Source: an uncultured Bacteroidia bacterium
GTDB taxonomy: Bacteria; Bacteroidota; Bacteroidia; Bacteroidales; Prolixibacteraceae
Direction: 5' to 3'
DNA: 64,000 nucleotides
NCBI GenBank assembly: GCA_903907075.1
Contig: CAIVMQ010000113.1
Location: 1 to 64,000, forward strand
The notes under the pieces: generated by a model
Databases searched by the model: none
Told to the model about the DNA's origin: nothing
What the model saw: only the letters and a program-made list of their open reading frames with translations
Program-made: the position numbers and the translations under genes
In this document: positions 41,139 through 51,449 of the stretch, piece after piece
Layout of the letters: each line of letters starts with the position of its first letter
Numbering within the stretch: the stretch's first letter is position 1

Positions 41139-42203
41139 ATGAATAAAGACCAAATCATTTCAGAAAGTGTAGCGCTTTTAAAAGCGATGATTGAGATTCC
41201 TTCGTTGAGTCGCGAAGAGAAATTGGTCTGCGATTATCTCGAAGAAAAATTAACTTCTTGGGGATTAGCTATTAATAGAAGCGAAAATAATATCTGGATA
41301 CGCAACGCCAATTGGTCGGACGGTAAACCGGTGATCCTATTTAATTCTCATGTGGATACCGTTCATGCCGGAAAAGGGTGGACCTACGAGCCTTTTAAAG
41401 CTTCCGTAGAGGGTGACAGAATTACTGGTCTTGGCAGTAACGATGCCGGTGCATCTGTAGTGGCTCTGCTTGGGGCGTTTCGCTATTTTTACGATTTCGA
41501 AAATCTTCCGTTTAATCTAATTTATTGCGCCAGTGCTGAAGAGGAGATCTCGGGAGACCATGGAGTCTCTTCGGTAATCGATCAGTTTGGAGATATCGAT
41601 CTTGCAATCGTGGGTGAACCTACTCAGATGCATTTAGCGATAGCAGAAAAAGGGTTGATGGTTTTAGATTGCGAAGCTAAAGGAAGGGCAGGTCATGCTG
41701 CTCGAAACGAGGGGGATAATGCTATTTATAAAGCTATTCATGATATTCAGATTCTTGAAAACTATAAATTCCCATTGGAATCCCCAGTTTTGGGACCGGT
41801 AAAAATGACTGTCACACAAATTGATGCAGGGCATCAGCATAATGTAGTGCCTGATTCTTGCCGTTTTGTGGTTGATGTGCGTACCAATGAGTTTTACTCG
41901 AATGAAGAGACATTCCGCGTTATTGTCGGATTAATTCATTCTGATGTGCATCCACGCTCATTTAAATTAAACTCTTCCGGAATAAATCCTGATCACCCTT
42001 TGGTAATTCGAGGAAAGGAAATGGGGCTCGAGACCTATGGCTCACCGACAACTTCCGATCAGGCTGTTATCCCTTTCCCTTCGATAAAAATTGGTCCGGG
42101 CGATTCGGCCAGATCCCATACCGCTAACGAATATATTATGATCTCGGAACTAGAAAAGGGTATTAACACATATATCACCCTGTTGGAAGGGTTGAGAATT
42201 TGA
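41139..42203 (+). CDS. argE: M20-family deacylase (ArgE-like)
   Basis: 354-aa ORF; LFNSHVDTVHAGKGWTYEPF, GLGSNDAGASVVAL, SAEEEISG, GEPTQMHLAIAEKGLMVLD. Confidence 0.9.
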   Translation: MNKDQIISESVALLKAMIEIPSLSREEKLVCDYLEEKLTSWGLAINRSENNIWIRNANWSDGKPVILFNSHVDTVHAGKGWTYEPFKASVEGDRITGLGSNDAGASVVALLGAFRYFYDFENLPFNLIYCASAEEEISGDHGVSSVIDQFGDIDLAIVGEPTQMHLAIAEKGLMVLDCEAKGRAGHAARNEGDNAIYKAIHDIQILENYKFPLESPVLGPVKMTVTQIDAGHQHNVVPDSCRFVVDVRTNEFYSNEETFRVIVGLIHSDVHPRSFKLNSSGINPDHPLVIRGKEMGLETYGSPTTSDQAVIPFPSIKIGPGDSARSHTANEYIMISELEKGINTYITLLEGLRI

Positions 42204-42255: not shown

Positions 42256-42285
42256 TTGATTTTATCTGATTTTTAAGTAATATTG
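42256..42285 (+). promoter_or_regulatory. Promoter of the his operon
   Basis: TTG (42256-42258), 19 nt, TAATATTG (42278-42285); predicted start about 10 nt before the leader peptide. Confidence 0.55.
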
Positions 42286-42301
42286 CAAGATCAATATAAT
42301 T

Positions 42302-42349
42302 ATGACAATAATAAGTATTCATACCGGCCATCATCATCACTTACCTTAA
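42302..42349 (+). CDS. his operon leader peptide MTIISIHTGHHHHLP
   Basis: 15-codon ORF with five His codons including CAT CAT CAT CAC at 42329-42340, stop TAA at 42347-42349, followed by mutually exclusive hairpins. Confidence 0.9.
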   Translation: MTIISIHTGHHHHLP

Positions 42350-42393
42350 GGTGAGCTTGCGTTGGTGCGTCCAGAATCATATGACCAAAACTC

Positions 42394-42426
42394 AGGCTTA
42401 CCTTTTTAACCAGGTGGGCCTTTTTT
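42394..42426 (+). terminator. his attenuator terminator
   Basis: AGGCTTACCT (42394-42403) / AGGTGGGCCT (42412-42421), 10 bp including two G-U pairs, 8-nt loop, T-tract 42421-42426. Confidence 0.88.
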
Positions 42427-42438
42427 AATTTTAAAAGA

Positions 42439-43299
42439 ATGAATTCAATTTTAAGAATTGCTGTACAAACTAAGGGGCGTTTAAATGAAGATTCGATGTC
42501 GTTACTTACTGAAACAGGGATTAAACTGATATCCAGTAATCGAAGGCTGATCTCTGCTGCAAAAAATTTCCCTCTTGAAGCATTATTTCTGCGTGATGAT
42601 GATATTCCACAGTGTGTAGCCGATGGTGTTGCAGATATTGGCATTGTTGGCAAAAATGAGGTCATGGAACAGCAACAAAATGTAAATATCATCAAACACT
42701 TGGGATTTAGTAAGTGCAGACTCTCTATGGCTATTCCTAAGGATATAGATTATAAAGGATTAGAGTGGTTTTCTGGAAAAAAAATTGCGACCTCGTATCC
42801 ACGGATACTCAAAAAATTTCTGGATGAAAATAAGATAGAAGCGAATATCCATTTTATCGCCGGATCGGTAGAGATCGCTCCTGGTATTGGACTGGCAGAT
42901 GCCATTTTTGATATCGTTAGTTCCGGAAGTACGTTGGTGAGCAATCGTCTGAAAGAGGTCTGTACAGTAATGGAATCCGAAGCAGTGGTTGTAGCAACAC
43001 CAAATCTGTCGATTGAGAAGCAGGCAATTCTTGACGAATTGATTTTCCGTATCGAATCAGTCGAGAAGGGGAGAGGTAAGAAATATATTTTACTTAATGC
43101 TCCTAATGATAAACTTGATCAGATCATTAAAGTTTTACCAGGAATGACTTCTCCAACCATTATGCCATTAGCCAGATCGGGCTGGAGCTCACTACATTCT
43201 GTAATCAATGAAAGTGAATTCTGGGTGGTTATTGGCAATCTTAAGAAAAATGGTGCCGAAGGAATTTTAGTCCTACCTATCGAGAAAATGATATTCTAA
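42439..43299 (+). CDS. hisG: ATP phosphoribosyltransferase
   Basis: 286-aa ORF; LRIAVQTKGRLNEDSMSLLTETGI, DDIPQCVADGVADIGIVGKNE, VEIAPGIGLADAIFDIVSSGSTL. Confidence 0.96.
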   Translation: MNSILRIAVQTKGRLNEDSMSLLTETGIKLISSNRRLISAAKNFPLEALFLRDDDIPQCVADGVADIGIVGKNEVMEQQQNVNIIKHLGFSKCRLSMAIPKDIDYKGLEWFSGKKIATSYPRILKKFLDENKIEANIHFIAGSVEIAPGIGLADAIFDIVSSGSTLVSNRLKEVCTVMESEAVVVATPNLSIEKQAILDELIFRIESVEKGRGKKYILLNAPNDKLDQIIKVLPGMTSPTIMPLARSGWSSLHSVINESEFWVVIGNLKKNGAEGILVLPIEKMIF

Positions 43300-43313: not shown

Positions 43314-44591
43314 ATGCAAATCTACCGTTATCCCCTGTTTAATTCGTGGCCGGATATTACCAAACGTCCTTCAGCTGATTTCTCAGATAAACTAGAGACG
43401 GTTCGCAATGTGATGTCTAAGATTCGCGCTGAGGGAGATGCTGCAATTCGGAAGTTCACCTTGCAATTTGATCATGCAACGATTACTGATTTTAAGGTCT
43501 CTGCCGCTGAAATTGAAGAAGCTGAATTGTCCCTTTGCCTTGAATTAAAAAATGCGATTCAAACTGCAGCACAAAATATTGATATTTTTCATGTAGCTCA
43601 AAAATTCTCACCCAAAGTTATTGAAACAATGCCTGGTGTGAAGTGCTGGCAGAAAGCTGTTCCCATTGAACGGGTCGGATTGTATATTCCCGGAGGGTCA
43701 GCACCATTATTCTCAACAGTTTTAATGCTGGGTATTCCTGCTATGATTGCCGGATGTCGGAATGTTGTTTTATGCACGCCACCTGGCCGTGATGGGAAAG
43801 TTCATCCTGCCATACTTTTTGCTGCTTCCTTGTGTAAGATCTCTGAAATTTATAAAATTGGTGGTATGCAAGCTATTGGGGCTATGGCCTACGGATCAGA
43901 ATCTGTTCCTAAGGTGGATAAAATATTTGGTCCGGGTAATTCATGGGTTACAGCAGCAAAACAATTTATTGCAAATACAGAATGCGCCATTGATATGCCC
44001 GCTGGACCATCAGAGGTCGCTGTGATGGCTGATAGTACTGCGAATCCTGCCTTCGTTGCTGCCGATTTATTATCTCAAGCTGAACATGGTCCTGATAGTC
44101 AGGTAATTCTTGTTACTACAGAAGAGCAATTGATTAAAGATGTGGTAAAAGTTATGGGAAAGCAACTGAAAGCTCTTCCGAGGGCCGAAATTGCCGCTAA
44201 AGCATTAGAAAATAGTCGGGCTATTCTTGTTCGGGATGTAGAAGAAATGGTGGCTCTGATAAATTTCTATGCCCCAGAACATTTAATTATAGCAACCAAA
44301 GATGCCGGAGAACTCGCAGAACAGATCACGAATGCCGGCTCTGTATTTATTGGGAATTACACCCCTGAATGTGCAGGAGATTATGCCTCAGGGACTAATC
44401 ATACCTTGCCTACAAATGGTTGGGCAAAATCATTTAGCGGTATCGGATTGGATAGTTTTTGTAAGAAAATAACCTTTCAGGAGATTACCAAAGATGGAAT
44501 GGCCCTTTTGGGTCCTGTCATTGAGGTGATGGCTGAAGCAGAACAACTTTTTGCCCATAAAAATGCTGCAACTTTAAGGATGAAAAATTAG
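43314..44591 (+). CDS. hisD: Histidinol dehydrogenase
   Basis: 425-aa ORF; PIERVGLYIPGGSAPLFSTVLMLGIPA, DKIFGPGNSWVTAAKQ, DMPAGPSEVAVMAD. Confidence 0.96.
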   Translation: MQIYRYPLFNSWPDITKRPSADFSDKLETVRNVMSKIRAEGDAAIRKFTLQFDHATITDFKVSAAEIEEAELSLCLELKNAIQTAAQNIDIFHVAQKFSPKVIETMPGVKCWQKAVPIERVGLYIPGGSAPLFSTVLMLGIPAMIAGCRNVVLCTPPGRDGKVHPAILFAASLCKISEIYKIGGMQAIGAMAYGSESVPKVDKIFGPGNSWVTAAKQFIANTECAIDMPAGPSEVAVMADSTANPAFVAADLLSQAEHGPDSQVILVTTEEQLIKDVVKVMGKQLKALPRAEIAAKALENSRAILVRDVEEMVALINFYAPEHLIIATKDAGELAEQITNAGSVFIGNYTPECAGDYASGTNHTLPTNGWAKSFSGIGLDSFCKKITFQEITKDGMALLGPVIEVMAEAEQLFAHKNAATLRMKN

Positions 44592-44636
44592 TTAACTACT
44601 GTTGCCAGGAAGTGCATTTAATCGAAATATGAATCA

Positions 44637-45674
44637 ATGAGTATAGATATTACCTTATTATTACGCGAAAATATTCGTAACCTAAAACCTTATTCCAGTG
44701 CACGGGATGAGTTTTCTGGTGATGCGGCAGTATTTCTTGATGCCAATGAGAATCCATTTAACACTCCGTGGAATCGTTATCCAGATCCTCATCATCGTCA
44801 ATTAAAGGAGCGGGTTTCTCAAATTAAGAAGGTGTTGGTTTCAAAAATATTCCTTGGTAATGGGAGTGACGAACCGATAGATTTACTTTTTCGTGCCTTT
44901 TGCGAACCGGGTAAAGACAACGTAGTATCTATTAATCCAACTTATGGAATGTACCGTGTTGCCGCTGATACGAATAATATCGAGGTGATCAATGTTCCCT
45001 TGGGTATTGACTATCTCCTCGATACCGAAGCTGTTCTTAAGGCTGTTAACTCAGATACCAAGATCATTTTTTTGTGCTCCCCCAATAATCCTACTGGTAA
45101 TGCTTTGGATCATAAGTCTATGATGCATATTATCACTGAGTTTAAGGGTTTAGTTGTTGTCGATGAGGCCTATATCGATTTTTGCCCTGAAAAATCTCTC
45201 CTTCCGTTACTTGATCATCATAGTAACCTGGTTATTCTTCAGACTTTCTCCAAAGCATGGGGCATGGCAGGACTCAGACTTGGAATGGCATTTGGTTCAC
45301 CTGAAATTATAGAGGTCCTCAGCCGAATTAAATATCCGTATAATCTGAATATTTTAACACAACATAAAGCTCTTGAGCTTTTGGCTAACGAACAGATTAA
45401 ATCAAAGTGGGTAACTACGATACTTAAAGAGCGTGACAAAATGGTCAAAAACTTATTAACCCTTCCTTTTGTCATAAAAGTATATAATTCGGATGCTAAT
45501 TTTATACTTGTAAAAATGGATGATCCACGCGGTATCTATAATTATCTTGTAGAAGAGAAAATTATTGTCAGAGATCGCTCTTCGATTGCACTCTGTAAAG
45601 GGTGCCTGAGAATTAGTATCGGTTCGCCTGAAGAAAATGCAACACTAATTGAGGTGCTCGAGCAATTGGTATGA
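44637..45674 (+). CDS. hisC: Histidinol-phosphate aminotransferase
   Basis: 345-aa ORF; FLDANENPFNTPWNRYPDP, LCSPNNPTGNALD, LQTFSKAWGMAGLRLGMAFG. Confidence 0.95.
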   Translation: MSIDITLLLRENIRNLKPYSSARDEFSGDAAVFLDANENPFNTPWNRYPDPHHRQLKERVSQIKKVLVSKIFLGNGSDEPIDLLFRAFCEPGKDNVVSINPTYGMYRVAADTNNIEVINVPLGIDYLLDTEAVLKAVNSDTKIIFLCSPNNPTGNALDHKSMMHIITEFKGLVVVDEAYIDFCPEKSLLPLLDHHSNLVILQTFSKAWGMAGLRLGMAFGSPEIIEVLSRIKYPYNLNILTQHKALELLANEQIKSKWVTTILKERDKMVKNLLTLPFVIKVYNSDANFILVKMDDPRGIYNYLVEEKIIVRDRSSIALCKGCLRISIGSPEENATLIEVLEQLV

Positions 45675-45827
45675 TTAAAGTACTGTTGATTAGTTTGTTT
45701 TTAATATTTTTAAGTGTTTTTAAATTAGTTTTATAATACGATTTTTCTGGTGGCGATTTCTTATCTTTAAAAGACTGAGATTTTATAGTCCCCCTGATTT
45801 TATGTTAAAGAGAAATATCAGTTAAAG

Positions 45828-46952
45828 ATGAAGAAGTTACTTTTTATTGATCGCGATGGAACATTGATCGTTGAGCCAATCTCGAATATGCAGGTTGATT
45901 CACTAGAGAAACTCGAATATATTCCCGGTGTTTTTCGGAACTTATATAATATTCAAAAATATCTTGATTTTGAATTGGTGATAGTTACCAATCAAGATGG
46001 ATTAGGAACTCCTATATTTCCCGAAGATAGTTTCTGGCCTGCACATAATGCAATGCTTAGAGCCTTTGAAAATGAAGGTATTAGCTTTACTAAAATCCAT
46101 ATCGACGAAAATTTTCCGGAAGCTAACTCACCTAATCGCAAACCGGGTACAGGAATGTTGACTGAATATTTTTCATCGGATTACGATCTAGCTAACTCTT
46201 TTGTTATTGGTGATCGATTGACAGATGTCGAATTAGCTAAGAATTTGGGATCTAAAGGTATTTATTTTATCGCTGAAGAAAATGCGAGTAAATTAGTAGA
46301 CAATGGACTTGAAGACCATTGCGCCATAATTACTGATAGCTGGGATGTGGTTTTCAATTATTTGGTTATGCGTGAGCGAACAGCTACGATAAACAGAAAA
46401 ACTTCTGAAACAGATATCTTTATTGAGTTAAAGCTAGATGGAACAGGTAAATGTGATATTCATACCGGGTTATCATTTTTTGATCATATGCTTGATCAGA
46501 TCGGACGCCATTCGGGATGCGATCTAACCATTAAAGTGAATGGAGATCTGGCTGTAGACGAGCATCATACTATCGAAGATACCGGAATCGCTTTAGGTGA
46601 GGCAATCCGTAAAGCACTCGGTGATAAGCGAGGAATTGAACGCTATGGCTATTGTTTACCTATGGATGACTGTTTAGCTCAGGTGGCGCTTGATTTTGGA
46701 GGAAGGCCATGGATCGTTTGGGATGCGGAATTTAAACGTGATAAAGTTGGAGATATGCCTACCGAGATGTTTTTCCATTTTTTTAAATCGTTGTCTGATT
46801 CATCGCTCGCTAATTTGAATATTCAAGCCCAAGGAAATAACGAACATCATAAAATTGAGGGCATCTTTAAAGCATTTGCCCGTGCCATGAAAATGGCGAT
46901 ACGAAAAGATCCTTTCGTACAATCACTTCCAAGTACCAAAGGGGTACTCTAA
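45828..46952 (+). CDS. hisB: Bifunctional histidinol-phosphatase / imidazoleglycerol-phosphate dehydratase
   Basis: 374-aa ORF; HAD N-terminus [18 protein letters not shown] half [43 protein letters not shown]. Confidence 0.96.
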
Positions 46953-46987
46953 ATTTAAGTTAGACTTTCAACATATTATTTGAGAAA

Positions 46988-47872
46988 ATGCAATCGATAC
47001 ATACCAATACAGGAGTTACTAATACTGCTATTTTACTCATTTATTGTCAGGATAAACAGGGTATTTTGGCTTCTGTGACTGAGTTTCTAAATGAAAATCA
47101 TGGTAATATTATTTATCTAGATCAACATGTCGATCATGAAGAGGGTTTGTTTTATATGCGCGTTGAATGGGAATTGGATAAATTTGCAATTCCTCGGGAG
47201 AAAATATCAGACTATTTTGAAACACTAATTGCCCGTAAGTTTGGGATTAAATTCGCACTCCATTTCTCAGATAAAAAACCTAGAATGGCACTCTTCGTAT
47301 CTAAAATGTCGCACTGTCTCTTTGATATCTTATCGCGATATATCGGTGGTGACTGGGAAACAGAGATCCCCTTGATTATTAGTAATCATGAGACCCTTAG
47401 ACCTATCGCAGCCCGTTTTGGAATTGATTTTCATCTGATTCAAAAGAACGAAAAAAATAAGGCTGATCAAGAACAGCTCGAACTTGATCTACTTAATGAA
47501 TACGCAATTGATTTTGTAGTTCTTGCTCGTTATATGCAAGTACTCTCTGATCAGTTTGTTTCTAATTATCCGAATAGAATTATCAATATCCACCACTCTT
47601 TTTTACCGGCGTTTGCAGGTGCAAAACCCTATCATGCGGCACATCAACGCGGGGTTAAGATTATTGGAGCTACAAGTCATTATGTAACCGCAGATCTTGA
47701 TGCTGGTCCTATAATTGCCCAGGATGTTGTCAGAATCTCGCACATCGATTCTGTCGAGAGTTTGGTCCGCAAAGGGCGCGATCTGGAGAAGATTGTACTT
47801 AGCGAAGCTGTATATAAACATCTTCAGAGAAAAATCCTGGTTTATAATAATAGAACGGTGGTTTTTAATTAA
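46988..47872 (+). CDS. purU: Formyltetrahydrofolate deformylase
   Basis: 294-aa ORF; ACT-like N-terminus ILLIYCQDKQGILASVTEFL, VVLARYMQVLS, NIHHSFLPAFAGAKPYHAAHQRGVKIIGATSHYVTADLDAGPII. Confidence 0.94.
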   Translation: MQSIHTNTGVTNTAILLIYCQDKQGILASVTEFLNENHGNIIYLDQHVDHEEGLFYMRVEWELDKFAIPREKISDYFETLIARKFGIKFALHFSDKKPRMALFVSKMSHCLFDILSRYIGGDWETEIPLIISNHETLRPIAARFGIDFHLIQKNEKNKADQEQLELDLLNEYAIDFVVLARYMQVLSDQFVSNYPNRIINIHHSFLPAFAGAKPYHAAHQRGVKIIGATSHYVTADLDAGPIIAQDVVRISHIDSVESLVRKGRDLEKIVLSEAVYKHLQRKILVYNNRTVVFN

Positions 47873-47883
47873 AAATAAAATGT

Positions 47884-48447
47884 ATGAAAAGCCTTTTACG
47901 AAATCATGCGTTGGCCGGTTTCCTGGGAGTACTGCTTTTTACAAACCTTTTTGCACAATCGTCGGTGGAAATTCCAAAACAGGAAATTCCTCAGGAATAT
48001 GAGTTTACTGCTAAAATTGGAGATGAAATACCGGAATTTACTCTTACCCTATCTAATGGTAAGAAAGTCTCCTCAAATGAATGGAGAGGCAAAGTAGTTA
48101 TGCTTCAGTTTACAGCTAGCTGGTGCGGTATTTGTCGAAAGGAAATTCCTTTTATACAAAGAGATATCTGGGCGAAATTTAAACGAAATACTGGTTTCTT
48201 ACTCTTCGGCGTAGACAGAGATGAGCCTCTCGAGAAAGTTAAAAACTATCAGAAAGAGATGAATATCGATTATCCTTTGGCTGTGGATCAAAATGCAGAA
48301 GTTTTTTCTCTTTTTGCTGATAAAAAAGCCGGGGTAACTAGAAATATTCTTATTAATAGGGAAGGGAAAATAGTTTATATGACCCGACTGTTTAAAGAGA
48401 ATGAATTTAGGGAGATGGTTGAAATGATCGGACTACTGTTGAAATAA
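47884..48447 (+). CDS. TlpA/ResA-like thioredoxin-fold protein
   Basis: 187-aa ORF with signal peptide; VVMLQFTASWCGICRKEIPFIQRD. Confidence 0.88.
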   Translation: MKSLLRNHALAGFLGVLLFTNLFAQSSVEIPKQEIPQEYEFTAKIGDEIPEFTLTLSNGKKVSSNEWRGKVVMLQFTASWCGICRKEIPFIQRDIWAKFKRNTGFLLFGVDRDEPLEKVKNYQKEMNIDYPLAVDQNAEVFSLFADKKAGVTRNILINREGKIVYMTRLFKENEFREMVEMIGLLLK

Positions 48448-48485
48448 TTCCAGTATCCTGATAAATGGGTAAACAACAAATTTAA

Positions 48486-49085
48486 ATGAAGATTGTAATT
48501 ATAAAATACAACGCCGGAAATATCCGGTCGGTAGACTTTGCGCTGCAACGATTAGGTGTTTCTGCACTTATATCTGATAATGCTCAGGAGATAAGAAGTG
48601 CCGATCGGGTTATTTTCCCAGGAGTGGGAGAAGCTTCAACGACTATGGAATTTCTTATTCATCATAAACTAGATACCCTGATCCGTGATTTAAAACAACC
48701 TGTCTTAGGGATTTGTCTGGGACTTCAATTGATGTGTACCCATTCCGAAGAGGGAGACACATCGTGCCTGGGTATCTTTCCGGAAAAAGTTAAAAAATTT
48801 GTTAGTCTCCCTAATCAATTATCTGAATTGAAAATACCACATATGGGATGGAATAACCTAAAGGAATTAAAATCTCCTCTTTTTAAAGCTATTAACGAGG
48901 AAGATTACTTCTATTTTGTTCACTCTTTTTACGCCACAACCGGTGTTGATACAGCTGCTATTTGTGACTATCTAATCCCTTTCAGTGCAGCGCTGCAGCG
49001 TGATAATTTCTATGCTACACAGTTTCATCCCGAGAAAAGTGGTAAGACAGGTGCAAAAATTCTTGAAAATTTCATAAACTTATAA
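48486..49085 (+). CDS. hisH: Imidazole glycerol phosphate synthase subunit HisH
   Basis: 199-aa [57 protein letters not shown]. Confidence 0.95.
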
Positions 49086-49099
49086 AGCTGATATTTAAG

Positions 49100-49825
49100 A
49101 TGATCGAGATTATTCCCGCTATAGATATCATTGATGGAAAGTGTGTTCGACTGAGCCAGGGTGACTACGAGCAGAAAATTATTTACAATGAAAATCCGTT
49201 AGAAGTAGCCAAGATGTTTGAAGATGCTGGTCTTAAACGATTACACCTTGTCGATCTCGATGGAGCAAAAGCTCATCATATTGTTAATCAGGATGTTTTG
49301 CATTTGATTGCCACAAAAACAAACCTGATTATTGATTTTGGCGGTGGACTAAAATCTGATGAGGATTTAAAAATTGCATTCGAATCAGGAGCAACGATGG
49401 TTACAGGAGGTAGCATTGCCGTAAAATCTCCTGAAGTTTTTATGCGATGGATCGAAAAGTATGGAGCAGATCAAATAATCTTAGGAGCCGATGCCAAAAA
49501 TGAGATGATCGCTGTCTCAGGATGGCAAGAGTCGACAGGAACTGACATTTTTACTTTTATAAATGAATGGCATTCCAGAGGAATATCGAAGATTATTAGC
49601 ACCGACATTAACCGCGATGGAATGTTACAAGGGGCGTCCACAGAATTATACATTAAGATTTTAAGTGCTTTTCCGGATACTTATCTTATTGCCAGTGGAG
49701 GAGTAAGTTCTATGATAGATATTGTGGAGCTTCAGAATGCAGGAATACCTGCTGTAATAACAGGAAAGGCAATCTATGAAGGTCGGATATCAATGACAGA
49801 AATAGAAAATTTTATCCGCGGGTAG
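49100..49825 (+). CDS. hisA: ProFAR isomerase HisA
   Basis: 241-aa [53 protein letters not shown]. Confidence 0.96.
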
Positions 49826-49909
49826 AAGAGATGAAAAAGGTTTTACGATTGTTCAACTTTTTTAATGATGAAAGCCTACCGGCTTCTTACTTATTTATTC
49901 TTTCTTAAT

Positions 49910-50662
49910 ATGCTTGCAAAACGTATAATACCATGCCTTGATATCCGAGACGGCCAGACGGTTAAAGGGGTTAACTTTGTGAATATTATTAATGTGGGGG
50001 ATCCTGTTGAGCTTGGAAAGCTATACGCGGAACAGGGAGCCGATGAATTGGTCTTTCTCGATATCACAGCAACTCACGAGGGTAGAAAAACTTTTGTGGA
50101 ACTGGTGAAGCGCATAGCTCTTAATTTAGATATTCCTTTCACTGTAGGCGGCGGTATCAGCGAGATTCGTGATGCTGAGGCTCTCTTGGCTGCAGGTGCT
50201 GATAAAATCTCGATTAACTCCTCTGCTGTGCGGAATCCTCAATTGATCGATGATCTTGCCCGTAATTTTGGTAGTCAGTTCGTTGTTGTGGCTATTGATG
50301 CTCTTGAGACTGATAGTCATTGGACTGTAACTGTTAATGGTGGGCGTATACCTACCGACAAAGAACTTTTCTCATGGGCAAAGGAGGCCGAAAATAGAGG
50401 AGCCGGTGAAATTCTGTTTACCTCAATGAACCACGACGGCACGAAAAATGGTTTTGCCAATGAGGAATTAGCTCTCCTGTCCGAAAACTTGACAATTCCT
50501 CTCATTGCTTCTGGTGGGGCTGGAAGTATGGAACATTTTGCAGAGGTGTTTACCTTAGGAAAAGCGGATGCTGGTTTAGCAGCTAGTATTTTCCATTTTC
50601 ATGAAATTGCCATTCCCGATCTAAAGCATTACCTTCGCGATCGCGGAATTTGTGTGAGATAA
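49910..50662 (+). CDS. hisF: Imidazole glycerol phosphate synthase subunit HisF
   Basis: [52 protein letters not shown]; start placed at the internal ATG that gives the canonical N-terminus. Confidence 0.95.
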
Positions 50663-50849
50663 GATACTCAATCCCGAATAAAGTCTGCTCTACCATCCTG
50701 TGTTAGGGGTTGCAGACAGGGCCGAAGATTTCAATGGCGATATGTTAGCTCTTAATCTGGAGCATACTGGTTTCGCTAAAGAGGTTTTATAAGTTATTAA
50801 ATGATAATTTAAATCATTACCCCTGGTAATTAAAAATACGATTAACGAT

Positions 50850-51449
50850 ATGGAACTTAATTTCAATAAACTGACAGGCGATCTTCTTCCTGCTGTTATT
50901 CAGGATAATACAACAGGCAAAGTTTTGATGCTTGGGTTTATGAATCGCGAAGCTTACGATAAAACGGTAGCTACGAACTTAGTTACCTTCTTTAGTAGGA
51001 CAAAAAATCGGCTTTGGACAAAGGGTGAGGAATCTGGTAATTTTCTAAACGTTGTTTCTATTCAGTCAGATTGTGATCAAGATACTCTTTTAATCAAGGT
51101 TAATCCCGTAGGTCAGGTTTGCCATACTGGTACAGATACTTGTTGGGGCGAAGTGAATAAAGGAGAGGATATTTTATTTCTTAAACAACTTCAGGATTTT
51201 ATCGATCAGCGTAAGCGTGAAATGCCTAAAGGTTCCTATACAACCTCACTTTTTGAAGATGGGATATCAAGAATGGCTCAGAAAGTTGGTGAAGAGGCTG
51301 TCGAGACAGTTATTGAAGCGATGGCAAATAATGATGAGCGTTTGCTTTACGAAGCCTCCGACCTTGTTTACCATCTCATTGTGCTTTTGTCTCACAAAGG
51401 GTATCGGATTGAAGATTTAGCTCGTGAGCTAAAGAAAAGACATAAATAA
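50850..51449 (+). CDS. hisIE: Bifunctional phosphoribosyl-AMP cyclohydrolase / phosphoribosyl-ATP pyrophosphatase
   Basis: 199-aa ORF; MLGFMNREAYDKTVATNLVTFFSRTKNRLWTKGEESGNFL, SYTTSLFEDGISRMAQKVGEEAVETVIEA. Confidence 0.96.
   Translation: MELNFNKLTGDLLPAVIQDNTTGKVLMLGFMNREAYDKTVATNLVTFFSRTKNRLWTKGEESGNFLNVVSIQSDCDQDTLLIKVNPVGQVCHTGTDTCWGEVNKGEDILFLKQLQDFIDQRKREMPKGSYTTSLFEDGISRMAQKVGEEAVETVIEAMANNDERLLYEASDLVYHLIVLLSHKGYRIEDLARELKKRHK

Follow-up and report, generated by a model that had tools for sequence, protein, structure and literature searches.

The 64,000-nt stretch of DNA analysed here (the window) carries, between argE and hisG, what is very probably a histidine-sensing, ribosome-mediated transcription attenuator controlling the hisGDCB-(purU-tlpA)-HAF-IE operon, as judged from comparative sequence analysis and modelled RNA folding. 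Our analysis establishes coding constraint on a short leader open reading frame (ORF), its amino-acid specificity, a set of conserved and covarying helices, the order of the RNA segments and a computed folding switch. Premature termination in the leader and a response to histidine are predicted. Classical leader-peptide attenuation of this operon had been proposed in a preliminary description of the sequence, and the comparison with relatives strongly supports it, through the His ORF, the terminator, the helices and the computed switch.

The window comes from a Prolixibacteraceae-like Bacteroidota genome whose nearest named relatives are Mariniphaga and Prolixibacteraceae MAGs, followed by Sunxiuqinia. 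argE ends at position 42203, 190 nt upstream of the terminator stem, and the hisG ATG is at 42439. The interval between them holds a promoter-like element, a 15-codon ORF and four segments that can form three overlapping helices; these elements and the his operon genes are on the + strand. The promoter-like element (42256–42285) is of the Bacteroidota −33/−7 type and consists of TTG (42256–42258), a 19-nt spacer and TAATATTG (42278–42285). It probably serves as the promoter; 83 of 148 leaders have TANNNTTGC/TANNTTTGC no more than 45 nt ahead of their start, compared with 1.1% of shuffles. hisG (42439–43299; TIGR00070 and HisG_C-term, above cut-off) is the first gene of the putatively regulated operon, and the remainder (43314–51449) comprises hisD, hisC, hisB (bifunctional), purU, a gene for a TlpA/ResA-like protein, hisH, hisA, hisF and hisIE. 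Shared strand and spacing suggest that hisG to hisIE are co-transcribed. purU (formyltetrahydrofolate deformylase) and the TlpA/ResA-like gene sit between hisB and hisH (46988–48447) and, lying within the his operon, would come under the same histidine control.

The leader ORF (42302–42349) encodes MTIISIHTGHHHHLP, with five His codons in 15 and a TAA stop; its coordinates and translation agree with those first reported. We aligned 17 sequences from the window's genus plus one sister genus (alignment A1). The ATG, the frame and the TAA are kept in all 17 leaders. Two indels fall inside the ORF, each of 3 nt, and those downstream are 1 to 5 nt long and mostly not multiples of 3. Codons at the end of the ORF vary synonymously (His CAT/CAC, Leu TTA/TTG, Pro CCT/CCA). 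The frame-preserving indels and synonymous changes point to coding constraint on a short ORF rich in codons of the operon's own amino acid, as is characteristic of ribosome-mediated attenuators. Other short ORFs with amino-acid runs before genes in the window amount to one weak proline ORF.

The three helices of the preliminary description (1:2, 2:3 and 3:4) were confirmed in sequence and position. Segment 1 (CTTACC, 42340–42345) pairs with 42350–42355 to form protector 1:2, which spans the end of the leader ORF, according to pairing in the family alignment and RNAalifold. Segment 2 (AAGGTGAGCTTG, 42348–42359) is the 5' arm of the antiterminator and pairs in the family alignment with segment 3 (CAGGCTTACCTT, 42393–42404), which is common to antiterminator and terminator. 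In the stem of terminator 3:4, AGGCTTACCT (42394–42403) pairs with segment 4 (AGGTGGGCCT, 42412–42421); segment 4 and the T6 U-tract (42421–42426) complete an intrinsic terminator detected by both terminator scan and pairing. This terminator is the top terminator-like site in the 17 kb scanned, the 140-nt leader has a folding z of −2.2, and RNAalifold applied to A1 returns 1:2 plus 3:4 unprompted. A possible inner antiterminator helix, TTGGT/ACCAA (42362–42388), is visible to the eye in a portion of the genus alignment.

No base pair in the A1 genus alignment shows a double change, so the covariation rests on a family-level alignment of 22 sequences (A2). Helix 1:2 is paired in 98.5% of A2 cells, and seven sequences show a UA to CG double change in it; helix 2:3 is paired in 89.5%, with 10 double-changed cells, a value as high being seen in 0 of 500 shuffles; and helix 3:4 is paired in 96.8%, with two double-changed cells. 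Pairing falls to 16–66% when the partners are slid by one to three columns. Covariation in relatives, which had been suggested as a check on the helices, is thus found as conservation with compensatory changes in all three.

Across the phylum, a terminator follows the leader in 123 of 149 leaders (2.6% of shuffles), and so lies, as in known attenuators, between the leader and the first structural gene. In 83 of 123 leaders its 5' arm pairs with an upstream segment, close to where the leader ends, better than in shuffles (p ≤ 0.05). Of the 85 cases counted as significant, 83 have this segment overlapping the surroundings of the leader stop codon, and its median starting point lies 14 nt (interquartile 9–17) beyond the first base of the last His codon. 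The helix letters differ by order while the plan is kept, with AGGCTTACC/GGTAGGCC in Bacteroidales and ACCCGTTTGAG/CTCAAGCGA in Flavobacteriales. The TAA stop codon gives segment 2 its first two bases in the window's genus; in many other lineages segment 2 lies within the leader ORF, as where the peptide ends in TGRP (from GGTAGGCCG) or SQAK (from TCTCAAGCGA). The leader peptides have conserved C-terminal tails (GRP, QAR/QAK/QAMC) whose positions match that of the antiterminator segment in L045, L048, L145, L147, L200–L208 and other loci; these tails are best read as RNA constraint because segment 2 lies inside the ORF there.

The position of the terminator allows another outcome for the same His-codon sensing, in which helix 3:4 acts mainly on translation by blocking ribosome loading on hisG, instead of or in addition to halting RNA polymerase. 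In the window, 17 nt separate the end of the stem from the hisG AUG; over the whole set this distance has a 5th percentile of 14 and a median of 31 nt, and attenuators that sequester the ribosome-binding site do exist (PMC9413887). Such a switch needs no U-tract, yet the U-tract follows the stem in the 123 leaders counted above and is near-invariant within the genus; moreover, the distance from stem to hisG varies widely among other lineages. We consider a mainly translational effect improbable and retain transcription attenuation as the preferred reading.

We computed the effect of ribosome position on folding by holding the nucleotides under the ribosome single-stranded, with the footprint edge set at 9–11 nt. 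For the window RNA, the computed terminator probability is 0.01–0.02 with the A site on any of His codons 1–4 and 0.998 with the A site on the stop codon; with a 13-nt footprint, a stall at the last His codon would give termination. The free full-length window RNA favours 2:3 at equilibrium (terminator probability 0.03), so termination on an untranslated leader would need 1:2 to form first during transcription. At equilibrium, the full-length RNA of most other lineages folds preferentially into the terminator whatever the ribosome state, and the switch there would therefore depend on the order of folding during transcription. We accordingly folded the transcript as it stands before segment 4 is made. 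Over 123 leaders, the mean antiterminator probability is 0.89 for a ribosome at the first His codon versus 0.32 for one at the stop codon, and for the window 0.999 versus 0.13. The contrast vanishes when the stretch from the His run to the terminator is shuffled (0.45 versus 0.40), and the difference exceeds 0.6 in 55% of leaders versus 6% of shuffles. In these computations the position of the ribosome decides whether the antiterminator forms at the expense of the terminator, as expected of an attenuator.

The mechanism we propose is as follows. Transcription would start approximately 10–15 nt upstream of the leader ORF. With ample His-tRNA, the ribosome would reach the stop codon and cover segment 2, leaving segment 3 to pair with segment 4; once 3:4 had formed, RNA polymerase would halt ahead of hisG, at the U-tract near 42426. 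A shortage of charged His-tRNA would make the ribosome stall on the His codons and mask segment 1; segments 2 and 3 would then pair before segment 4 had been transcribed, no terminator would form and hisG would be transcribed. Helix 1:2 would take the protector role on a leader that is untranslated or from which the ribosome has already been released, a fallback enabling the terminator without a ribosome. The preliminary description had assigned antitermination to a ribosome stalled on the His codons and termination to one at the stop, and both assignments are borne out by the computed folds. Its account of how the terminator is freed is refined here: because segment 2 starts inside the stop codon, a terminating ribosome would mask segment 2 directly, and 1:2 is not the sole way to free the terminator.

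Conservation of the His-run peptide in relatives, also suggested beforehand as a check, is seen in the 17 aligned leaders and, counting regions with four or more His in an 8-codon stretch of a short ORF, in 149 of the 220 distinct regions upstream of hisG that were sampled across the phylum (0.23% of shuffles). At least three His occur in 170 of the 220 regions (3.7% of shuffles) and at least five in 91 (0 of 4,400 shuffles), and none of the other 19 amino acids is comparably enriched in short ORFs of these regions. Leader-bearing named genera include Sunxiuqinia, Dysgonomonas, Phocaeicola, Myroides, Sediminibacterium, Christiangramia and Muricauda. The 71 regions without a His leader include the sampled Prevotella-like and Muribaculaceae loci (L077, L083–L097, L109–L110), and the most diverged hisG group likewise carries none. 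Within the genus, a His-rich short ORF stands at a nearly fixed distance before hisG in all usable genomes, and a family covariance model finds exactly one copy in each genome where hisG was found, always at hisG. hisS, which concerns the same amino acid outside the biosynthetic operon, has a His leader in 0 of 29 relatives. By these sequence comparisons the attenuator is not confined to this genome and is found across the phylum, and the His leader tracks hisG rather than the upstream gene, which is argE-like in only 7 of 80 leader-bearing loci.

That synteny also bears on the idea that the hairpin simply terminates transcription of argB-argE upstream, with the His-rich ORF a product of chance. 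Although the end of argE 190 nt before the hairpin stem would fit such an arrangement, we reject it as highly improbable on account of the rarity of argE at leader-bearing loci, the recurrence of the His ORF far above chance and the covariation of antiterminator helix 2:3. Equally improbable is a leader peptide acting in trans (for example, in metal binding or regulation) with the RNA structure secondary: trans-acting leader peptides exist, as peTrpL of Sinorhizobium does (PMC7298713), but here the peptide outside the His run is not conserved across families, and the conserved GRP and QAR/QAK tails, encoded by segment 2 in several lineages, look like RNA constraint.

The closest known counterpart of the proposed attenuator is that of the enterobacterial his operon (hisL; RF00514), with which it shares the His-run peptide, the mutually exclusive 1:2/2:3/3:4 helices and the terminator before hisG. 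The gene order hisGDCBHAF-IE is also shared, and the hisNB fusion is common to both. The leader and helix sequences, the phylum and the promoter type differ, as does the presence of purU and a TlpA-like gene in the operon. The RF00514 His_leader model gives no match at the gathering score nor at E ≤ 10 with permissive filters; we therefore do not claim membership of the enterobacterial sequence family, only that the leader would work like it. Rfam scans of the window and 12 related leaders matched no family, the permissive scan gave only chance-level matches (e.g. Thr_leader, E = 1.8), and the T-box model had no match upstream of the his genes in the Rfam scan of the window. Transfer of the his operon has been proposed, and the two attenuators may be related by descent or may have arisen separately. 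In the passages retrieved, a 2021 survey of his genes in the superphylum mentions attenuation only for the enterobacterial operon.

Leader peptides had been known in Proteobacteria and Actinobacteria only, until Naville and Gautheret 2010 (PMC2965389) added the Firmicutes, whose leaders they argued to be independent of those in Proteobacteria from the absence of sequence similarity. The Firmicutes His leaders (Bacillus cereus group, Peptostreptococcaceae, Erysipelotrichales; PMC9413887, PMC2965389) share the His-run peptide and an alternative terminator and antiterminator ahead of his genes; they belong to a different phylum, and we liken them to the window leader by description, not sequence. 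A transcriptome study of Flavobacterium psychrophilum reported a structured element upstream of hisG, also in other Flavobacteriaceae and with no Rfam match, and its authors described strong clues that leader-peptide attenuation operates ahead of operons for amino-acid biosynthesis (PMC9723704); among the papers found on attenuation in Bacteroidetes, this study alone mentions hisG in the phylum. The element precedes the same gene in the same phylum, and the flavobacterial hisG leaders in our set (e.g. L104–L108) share the anatomy described here. Lopatovskaya et al. in 2010 (cited in PMC4833913) reportedly surveyed attenuation in many bacteria, and that survey may hold an earlier prediction for his operons of Bacteroidetes. 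Regulators of this kind are thus already known, with earlier hints of their presence in the phylum; their breadth, anatomy and helices have apparently not been described in the papers surveyed.

Weaker matches of the covariance model led to leaders of trpE, tyrA/DAHP synthase and ilvD. By direct count, Ile/Leu/Val-rich leaders precede ilvD in 26 of 27 relatives and Trp-rich leaders precede trpE in 24 of 28. The window's own genome has one before ilvD (L366, G000:C12:47700-48400), where the Ile/Leu/Val-rich leader MKNISTYTLLLVVILILVAAG is followed by a hairpin and T8. Among the trpE loci of relatives (L243–L267), 18 were examined and 17 have two Trp-rich leader ORFs in series, such as MHTFKSIWLWWGNTFLC then MKQNSQNILVWRWQEYYLQT, each followed by an intrinsic terminator of its own; at L248, for example, the region concerned is −325 to −1 of trpE. 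Five of these tandem loci were scanned against Rfam with no match. A Phe/Tyr-rich leader, MKLFNNNSFYYWFYYFGSEIGIDW, and a terminator precede prephenate dehydrogenase and DAHP synthase/chorismate mutase (L334:428-502), and Phe-rich ORFs also occur in some pheA upstream regions of relatives. Weinberg et al. 2010 (PMC2864571) list Bacteroid-trp, RF01692, as a cis-regulatory RNA candidate of Bacteroidetes. That model matches neither the window nor the five trp leader loci scanned. To judge from its name, Bacteroid-trp is a likely trp counterpart of the his leader, differing in amino acid. On sequence grounds, the ilv, trp and phe/tyr operons of relatives appear to carry the same kind of leader. 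It seems reasonably likely that leader-peptide attenuation is a general control of Bacteroidota amino-acid operons (his, ilv, trp, phe/tyr), with his leaders recurrent in Bacteroidales, Flavobacteriales and Chitinophagales.

We conclude that the his leader is a real and widespread regulator of a familiar kind, barely documented in this phylum. A ribosome-sensing switch of the enterobacterial textbook type, built from unrelated sequence and lying outside the Rfam models, very probably controls the his operons of a large phylum, and the leaders can serve in practice to predict histidine regulation in gut and environmental Bacteroidota. If attenuation is indeed phylum-wide, its repertoire would include two complete trp attenuators in series. 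Bacteroidota are largely without Shine-Dalgarno initiation, and leader-peptide attenuation requires a ribosome close behind RNA polymerase. Phylum-wide attenuation would thus imply close coupling of transcription and translation despite the scarcity of Shine-Dalgarno initiation, and, since attenuation needs that close-following ribosome, the leaders would be ready-made reporters for the tightness of transcription-translation coupling in Bacteroidota.
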